DNA of 64,000 nt, taken from NCBI RefSeq assembly GCF_016025255.1, contig NZ_CP065592.1, positions 1,097,122 through 1,161,121 on the forward strand. The letters are read 5' to 3'. This document shows, one piece after another, positions 15,206 through 56,672 of this stretch; position 1 is the stretch's first letter; every line of letters begins with the position of its first letter. Under the pieces are notes generated by a model. The model ran no database searches. It saw nothing but the letters and a program-made list of their open reading frames with translations, and had not been told where the DNA came from. The translations under genes and the position numbers were made by a program. This DNA comes from Sphingosinicella flava. GTDB taxonomy: Bacteria; Pseudomonadota; Alphaproteobacteria; Sphingomonadales; Sphingomonadaceae.

Positions 15206-15300
15206 CGTCACCCCGGACTTGATCCCGGGGTCCATGAACACGGACCTATCCGGACAAGGCGGTGTTCATGGATTCCAGCTTTCGCTGGAATGACGAACAA
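15206..15300. repeat. Class A REP/REPIN-type repeat, copy 1
   Basis: It contains an internal inverted pair, TGAACACGG and the complementary GTGTTCA, separated by a short loop. It is flanked by palindromes ccggacttgatcccgg and ttccagctttcgctggaa. A closely similar unit lies at 56578-56672. It has entered the end of the gp10.1 frame and supplies the last residues and the stop codon of that protein. Confidence 0.8.
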
Positions 15301-55683: not shown

Positions 55684-55920
55684 ATGCTCGACAACCCCTT
55701 CACCCGCCATCCCCGCGATATGGGCGAGAGTTATTTCCAGCATCTCGGCCATGCGCTGAAATCCGGGCTGAGGCTGGTCGGCAGCGGCTTCGCTTGCATC
55801 GTCCACGCCTTCATCCCCTTCCTGTTCGTCAATACGGCGAGCAACACGGTGCGCTCCATGCATAAGGGGATATCCAAGCGGGTCGACGCGCCCAATTGGG
55901 AGCGTCATCCCATCATCTGA
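55684..55920 (+). CDS. DUF6356-like small membrane protein
   Basis: A 78-residue protein starting MLDNPFTRHPRDMGESYFQHLGHAL. A hydrophobic central helix (SGFACIVHAFIPFLFVNTAS) follows, and a conserved C-terminal MHKGISKRV. This matches the DUF6356 family of alphaproteobacteria (capsule biosynthesis protein-like length), function unknown. It precedes hsp20 by 125 bases. Confidence 0.8.
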   Translation: MLDNPFTRHPRDMGESYFQHLGHALKSGLRLVGSGFACIVHAFIPFLFVNTASNTVRSMHKGISKRVDAPNWERHPII

Positions 55921-55983
55921 CGCGGCCCGCTTTATGGATTGCTCAATTCCTGAAAAACGGAACGGTGCTTGGTCCTGAACGTT

Positions 55984-56002
55984 TTCGCTCCGGCGGAGCG
56001 AA
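55984..56002 (+). promoter_or_regulatory. Leader hairpin 1 of hsp20
   Basis: TTCGCTC, loop CGGCG, GAGCGAA: a 7-bp perfect stem upstream of the SD-sequestering hairpin. A stable first stem followed by a weaker stem over the SD is the usual plan of ROSE-type thermometers. Confidence 0.55.
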
Positions 56003-56012
56003 GCGATGCTCC

Positions 56013-56040
56013 CCTCCTTTTTCAAATGAAAGTCAGGAGG
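56013..56040 (+). promoter_or_regulatory. SD-sequestering hairpin of hsp20, RNA thermometer candidate
   Basis: CCTCCT (56013-56018) is fully complementary to the SD AGGAGG (56035-56040). Between them TTTC (56020-56023) pairs with GAAA (56028-56031) around AAAT. The SD is thus closed at low temperature by a short A-U/G-C stem with an internal asymmetry. This suits heat-induced opening in front of a small heat-shock gene. It is similar in plan to ROSE elements; sequence match to that family is not proven. Confidence 0.65.
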
Positions 56041-56045
56041 ATGCG

Positions 56046-56552
56046 ATGACGAACAGAGACTTGATGCCCTGGAATCGCGATCGAAACCGCATGAGCCGTT
56101 ACGGCGGCAGCGGCGCGATGATGGACCTGCGGCACGAAATGGACCGGATGCTGACCGATGTGCTGGGCGGTCGCTTCCCGAGCTTCGGCGGAAATGGGGC
56201 CGGGCGAAGCGTCATGGCTTGGCCGAGCATCGACGTGGAGGAAACCGACGATCAGGTCAGGATCACCGCCGAGCTGCCCGGCATGCGCCAGGAAGATATC
56301 GACCTGCGTATCGAGGATGGCATGCTGATGCTGAGCGGCGAGCGGAAGGACGAGCGCGAGGATAAGGAACGCGGCTATTCCGAACGCTATTTCGGCCGTT
56401 TCGAACGCCAGGTCGCCCTGCCGCGCGGCGTCAGGGAAGATGCCTGCGACGCGCAGTTCAAGGACGGCATGCTGACGATCACGATTCCCAAGTCGGAAGA
56501 CGCGGCGAAAGGCCGCAAGATCGAGATCAAGAGCGGGATGGAGCGACCATAG
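56046..56552 (+). CDS. Small heat-shock protein, Hsp20/alpha-crystallin family
   Basis: A 168-residue chaperone. A flexible N-terminus (DLMPWNRDRNRM) leads into an alpha-crystallin domain (PSIDVEETDDQVRITAELPGM, then ERSYGRFERQVALPRGV type strand) and an IPK-like tail (LTITIPKSED). It binds unfolding proteins in the cytoplasm. The start is fixed by AGGAGG, which is held in a hairpin. Other in-frame starts upstream are not supported. Confidence 0.94.
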   Translation: MTNRDLMPWNRDRNRMSRYGGSGAMMDLRHEMDRMLTDVLGGRFPSFGGNGAGRSVMAWPSIDVEETDDQVRITAELPGMRQEDIDLRIEDGMLMLSGERKDEREDKERGYSERYFGRFERQVALPRGVREDACDAQFKDGMLTITIPKSEDAAKGRKIEIKSGMERP

Positions 56553-56577: not shown

Positions 56578-56672
56578 GGCTCGTCATGCCGGACTTGATC
56601 CGGCATCTATGAACACGGACCTATCCGAAAAGACAGTGTTCATAGACCCCGGATCAAGTCCAGCTTGACGGC
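56578..56672. repeat. Class A REP/REPIN-type repeat, copy 2
   Basis: It shares with 15206-15300 the core ATGAACACGGACCTATCCG and the inverted partner GTGTTCAT, with flanking ccggacttgatccgg palindromes. Here it lies in the space after hsp20 and harms no gene. The two copies 41 kb apart support a dispersed mobile repeat. Confidence 0.8.

Follow-up and report, generated by a model that had tools for sequence, protein, structure and literature searches.

Does the hsp20 gene of Sphingosinicella flava carry a leader that hides its own ribosome-binding site, and if so, does this leader work as an RNA thermometer? The gene lies in a stretch of 64,000 nucleotides, called the window here, and the initial annotation had presented its leader as a candidate thermometer built like the ROSE elements that precede small heat-shock genes. 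The features on which the answer depends are the following (window coordinates).

55684 to 55920, plus strand: gene for a DUF6356 protein, the upstream neighbor (PF19883, E value 7e-27)
55959 to 55983, plus strand: predicted promoter for EcfG, the general stress sigma factor (exact match to GGAAC-N16-CGTT)
55984 to 56002, plus strand: perfect inverted repeat TTCGCTCC-GGC-GGAGCGAA, read from the sequence
55995 to 56012, plus strand: leader hairpin I, GGAGC (55995 to 55999) with GCUCC (56008 to 56012), in folds of transcripts starting at 55988 to 55994
56006 to 56029, plus strand: possible leader open reading frame (ORF) ATGCTCCCCTCCTTTTTCAAATGA (MLPSFFK and a stop codon), read from the sequence, with GGAG at 55995 to 55998 as Shine-Dalgarno (SD) sequence and a 7-nt spacer
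56013 to 56018, plus strand: anti-SD arm CCUCCU, exact complement of AGGAGG
56019 to 56032, plus strand: inner stem UUUUC/GAAAG with loop AAAU, folded at all temperatures
56035 to 56040, plus strand: SD sequence AGGAGG, closed in a hairpin (about 0.02 unpaired at 20 to 50°C in the predicted transcript)
56046 to 56552, plus strand: hsp20 coding sequence, 168 aa, N terminus of the MTNRDLMPW type (PF00011, E value 6e-24)

The complementarity that had drawn attention to this leader is real: CCTCCT at 56013 to 56018 is the exact complement of AGGAGG at 56035 to 56040, which ends 5 nt before the ATG of hsp20. In the folds, these two arms form six uninterrupted standard pairs, all perfect and four of them G-C. 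The A/U-rich inner stem of the initial annotation was also recovered, but with five pairs instead of four, between UUUUC (56019 to 56023) and GAAAG (56028 to 56032), one of them U-G; it closes the loop AAAU (56024 to 56027) and is set off from the SD duplex by a 2-nt bulge (UC, 56033 and 56034). The start codon lies outside the hairpin, which on its own had predicted free energies of −12.6, −10.1, and −8.4 kcal/mol at 25, 37, and 45°C, respectively. By inspection, a weaker, U-rich register (CCUUUU with AGGAGG) can also be drawn. RNA folding left the SD closed at all temperatures tried, from 20 to 70°C, with ∼2% unpaired from 20 to 50°C in transcripts starting at 55988 to 55994. Over the 20 to 45°C range proposed in the initial annotation, the SD is predicted to be closed at low temperature rather than free. 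The folding models confirm that the hsp20 leader can fold so as to conceal its own ribosome-binding site. A long leader, produced by read-through from the DUF6356 gene, would close the hsp20 start codon as well in the corresponding fold.

We then looked for the promoter of hsp20. An EcfG-type site is found upstream, with a −35 element GGAAC at 55959 to 55963, a 16-nt spacer, and a −10 element CGTT at 55980 to 55983, and it is the single match to GGAAC-N16-CGTT in the whole window. The same pattern is given as the EcfG consensus of Sphingopyxis granuli TFA in PMC7083833, and PMC6599016 gives GGAAC-N17-20-GTT for Sphingomonas melonis. Based on the genome-wide rate, the chance of a forward match in 100 nt, the size of a leader, is ∼0.0008; over the entire genome the motif is not enriched, with 37 matches on both strands versus 80 for a reversed control. 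An EcfG pathway is indicated in this genome by a NepR match (PF18557, above the cut-off, at G000:C1:1270316), which has EcfG motif matches on either side, 1.2 kb ahead of it and 1.9 kb behind. Near hsp20, neither an RpoH-type site (CTTGAA-N11..18-CCNNAT) nor a sigma70-type site was found. As judged from the motif, transcription of hsp20 most likely begins at an EcfG general-stress promoter, and from the −10 spacing we infer a start near 55992, upstream of 56013 and not downstream of it, where a start would have spoken against a role for the hairpin. With GGAAC-N16-CGTT at most ∼100 nt from its start codon, hsp20 resembles the EcfG-dependent general-stress genes of sphingomonads; its assignment to EcfG is by motif, and the portions of the sphingomonad EcfG literature retrieved by search terms do not mention hsp20 as an EcfG target.

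The position of this promoter bears on the stable hairpin that had been described 10 bases upstream of the anti-SD arm. The perfect inverted repeat does exist in the DNA and ends ten bases 5′ of CCTCCT, but a start near 55992 falls inside it, so that the mRNA probably lacks the 5′ arm of the repeat, and the SD hairpin stays whole. In the predicted transcript, hairpin I replaces the cut repeat, its GGAGC pairing with GCUCC. In the terminator scan, the segment from 55995 to 56012 also scored as a weak terminator-like stem followed by CCTCCTTTTT; with a weak stem and the U-run five bases off, an intrinsic terminator was set aside.

The claim that the leader follows the plan of ROSE-type thermometers did not survive comparison with the known families. 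The Rfam covariance models for ROSE, ROSE_2, and fourU had no match in the hsp20 leader, either at the gathering score or at an E value of ≤10, while the positive controls behaved as expected, with ROSE_2 of Escherichia coli ibpA found at 100 bits and ROSE found at 20 separate sites in front of hsp20 genes in the loci analyzed, several of them in the same genus. In ROSE elements, a U(U/C)GCU motif pairs with the SD (PMC3669281). Such a pairing is absent here, where the partner of the SD is CCUCCU; a UCGCU string noticed by inspection at 55985 to 55989 lies before the inferred start and is not paired with the SD in the predicted transcript. The imperfect, noncanonical SD pairs typical of ROSE are likewise absent from the fold. 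What the leader does share with ROSE elements (Rfam RF00435 and RF01832) is a hairpin that conceals the SD of a small heat-shock gene, as the PF00011 match of the downstream product attests; it departs from them in its lack of a U(U/C)GCU partner, of mismatched or bulged SD pairing, of a multihairpin plan, and of a model match, and in having an EcfG motif instead of the RpoH-type promoter that is usual, if not strictly required, for ROSE. Since the ROSE features that we tested fail, we do not consider the leader a ROSE member; we rejected the label and regard a ROSE-family thermometer as very improbable here, despite the closed SD, the hsp20 gene downstream, and the UCGCU string.

Two other thermometers invite comparison. 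Like the fourU element of Salmonella agsA, the hsp20 leader has a U-run adjoining the SD-pairing arm, but the four uridines pair with GAAAG in the minimum-energy fold rather than with AGGA. The hsp17 thermometer of Synechocystis also consists of one short hairpin with the SD of a small heat-shock gene in its stem; according to PMC4477652, it has an internal 1×3 bulge between the start-codon and ribosome-binding-site stems, unlike the uninterrupted SD duplex found here, which leaves the start codon outside.

For the transcript starting at 55992, the predicted cost of opening the SD core was nearly flat, at 5.3, 5.2, and 5.1 kcal/mol at 25, 37, and 42°C, respectively. In isolated 3′ hairpins of ROSE elements from the same family, this cost drops by ∼1.5 to 2.6 kcal/mol over 25 to 42°C, typically from ∼7 to 5.4 kcal/mol. 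Likewise, the free energy of the hairpin extrapolates to zero at 85°C, versus 64 to 79°C for most same-family ROSE hairpins (two are at 85 to 87°C). The flat curve carries little weight, because the energy model misjudges the proven ROSE element of E. coli ibpA, a positive control that did not melt in silico and whose curve was flat too. A genetic precedent comes from Pseudomonas ibpA: once the SD was perfectly paired, the structure was "incapable of melting," and repression held at both temperatures (PMC3669281). The "rep" variant of P. putida ibpA (U38C, G39 deleted) has perfect SD/anti-SD pairing like the hsp20 leader; it is an engineered leader, repressed at low and high temperatures (PMC3669281), whereas the hairpin described here is natural and predicted. 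As a perfect duplex abolished sensing in Pseudomonas ibpA, the analogy would favor a static brake over a thermometer in the present case.

We evaluated how often such a closure would arise by chance. CCTCCT was present in 1.6% of random 43-mers with the base composition of the window, in 2.6% of dinucleotide shuffles of the hsp20 leader, and in 4/218 upstream segments (1.8%) of the same genome, from which stretches of ∼460 kb served as background. An opening cost at least as high as that observed was reached by 389 of 2,000 leader shuffles (19%) and by 5/53 own-genome leaders joined to the hsp20 SD. Genome-wide, CCTCCT-N3..30-AGGAGG occurs at 8 places (20 for a control pattern), and the hsp20 site is the only one followed by a start codon at a normal distance; AGGAGG-N4..9-ATG strings number 142 in the genome. 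On the reverse strand of another locus of this genome (L128, near 9741), the SD of a gene whose product was assigned by eye as a DUF2933-like small membrane protein lies in a hairpin, GUCCUCC-AAUC-AGGAGGGCC. In the same local test, the AGGAGG of this gene is closed more firmly than that of hsp20 (opening cost of 13.9 versus 11.0 kcal/mol). The closure before hsp20 exceeds chance only weakly; given these rates and the firm closure at the DUF2933-like gene, it is real and mildly unusual, and it is not restricted to heat-shock genes.

Homologs of hsp20 are found in most genomes of the family, the closest being ∼50% identical, and a scan of the genome contigs gave one distant locus. None of the homologs, from genus and family genomes, a class sample, and plasmids, has an alignable leader. 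At 17 loci, the homolog follows an IbpA-like hsp20 as the second gene of a tandem arrangement, with an Rfam ROSE element before the first gene in 15 of them, and at 14 loci, including the window, it stands alone. The exact EcfG motif is present at 6/14 stand-alone loci (window included) versus 0/17 tandem loci (Fisher P = 0.004, and P = 0.009 without the window), the two classes having been defined after the loci had been inspected. Besides the window, the exact motif is found at stand-alone loci L006, L009, L012, L019, and L023, and four further stand-alone loci (L011, L015, L021, and L026) have it with one mismatch. The SD of the other EcfG-driven homologs is 0.10 to 0.60 unpaired at 25 to 42°C. 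Closure as a trait of the hsp20 family was rejected, as none of the 62 homologs with an SD of at least 5 reaches the value of the window and their median unpaired fraction equals the background (0.49 versus 0.48). A full complement to an SD of at least 6 bases was found in none of 73 homologs.

We tentatively favor an EcfG-driven hsp20 whose SD hairpin acts as a largely temperature-insensitive brake and not as a ROSE element. The mRNA would start near 55992 at the general-stress promoter; its 54-nt leader would form a stack of two hairpins, and the second, in which CCUCCU pairs with the entire SD, would restrain translation initiation. Transcription induced by stress would then determine how much Hsp20 is made, and initiation would be limited because the hairpin opens rarely or with the help of ribosomes. 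The sequence anatomy, the exact promoter match, and the predicted closure are direct observations, as is the lack of ROSE features; from them we infer the braking function and the missing temperature response, along with the transcription start. This reading is supported by the closure of the SD in every fold and at every temperature together with the flat opening cost, by the repression at both temperatures in Pseudomonas ibpA with perfect SD pairing, and by the exact EcfG promoter, the NepR gene, the association of EcfG motifs with stand-alone loci, and the absence of a ROSE or fourU match. It is weakened because the closure may be due to chance (P ∼ 0.02 for CCTCCT and 0.19 for the opening cost), because other EcfG-driven homologs close their SD less, and because energy models misjudge real thermometers and the EcfG motif shows no genome-wide enrichment. 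An unclassified single-hairpin thermometer, of the zipper type like Synechocystis hsp17 or of the fourU type, in which gradual opening by heat would add translational control to the EcfG promoter, is possible but doubtful. Small heat-shock genes are the commonest targets of RNA thermometers, and one short stem-loop with low sequence conservation can suffice (PMC4166951), which keeps such an element conceivable for this leader. The predicted closure at low temperature (0.02 unpaired at 20 to 42°C) agrees with it, and the A/U-rich inner stem with its 2-nt bulge, or the weaker CCUUUU register, could provide the labile part; the six uninterrupted SD pairs with four G-C, the extrapolated 85°C, the almost flat opening cost, and the loss of sensing upon perfect pairing in Pseudomonas ibpA (PMC3669281) argue against it.

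The hairpin could also lack any regulatory role and reflect chance complementarity between a pyrimidine-rich leader and a strong purine SD. The frequency of CCTCCT in upstream segments of this genome, the 19% of shuffles matching the opening cost, the equally firm closure at the unrelated L128 gene, and the lack of full SD complements among the 73 homologs all fit this idea, which we nevertheless consider unlikely, as a full SD complement, a tight loop, and an inner stem coincide before an hsp20 gene, and the predicted fold would affect initiation whether selected or not. The leader ORF raises one more option. In ermC-type attenuators, a leader ORF overlaps the arm that conceals the downstream SD. 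The hsp20 leader likewise has an SD-led ORF overlapping the anti-SD arm: of its 7 codons, codons 3 to 5 constitute this arm, and its stop codon lies inside the SD hairpin. A ribosome on MLPSFFK might thus displace the arm, free the hsp20 SD, and make Hsp20 synthesis depend on ribosomes passing or stalling there; the SD hairpin was indeed lost in folds in which the ORF region was held unpaired, and an SD-led upstream ORF of this kind occurs in just 0.1 to 0.2% of random leaders, a figure from a test framed after the ORF had been seen. Unlike ermC-type leaders, this one has no known inducer or stall motif, its GGAG is predicted to be paired in hairpin I instead of free as in an attenuator, and no homologous leader was found among the relatives searched. 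Attenuation of this kind is decidedly unlikely, and we judge quite improbable the fuller model in which translation or stalling at MLPSFFK would open the hairpin, so that chaperone output would track the translation state instead of responding directly to temperature, with EcfG transcription as a further layer.

If the leader is indeed regulatory, a small heat-shock gene would have moved from the usual combination of RpoH and ROSE to EcfG and a different translational lock, and the family would offer a natural comparison between ROSE-led tandem operons and stand-alone copies with EcfG promoters. If it does not, an ordinary SD-closing hairpin would warn against calling thermometers from SD complementarity alone.

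The second hsp20 gene of this genome (L002, 1911 to 2003, minus strand; G000:C1, about 1874.9 to 1875.0 kb) has a ROSE-like leader with UUGCUCAAUGGAGGA. It scores 26.8 bits (E value of 0.016), under the 45-bit Rfam cut-off, and has a UUGCU/GGAGG core with imperfect pairs and a CTTGAAA string upstream; these sequence features make it the genome's true ROSE candidate. In ROSE-led tandem operons (L007, L008, L013, L014, L016, L018, L020, L024, L027, L029, L034, and others), a strong stem-loop of highly variable sequence lies between the two genes, with z scores down to −4.7 against mononucleotide shuffles. It does not conceal the second SD and might act in processing or stability. On the 3′ side of the window's hsp20, at 56582 to 56670, we noticed a 44-nt imperfect inverted repeat with CCGGACTTGATCCGG in both arms, one of them mismatched; another copy of this motif, with one mismatch, is found at 15213, and it looks like a repeat family.
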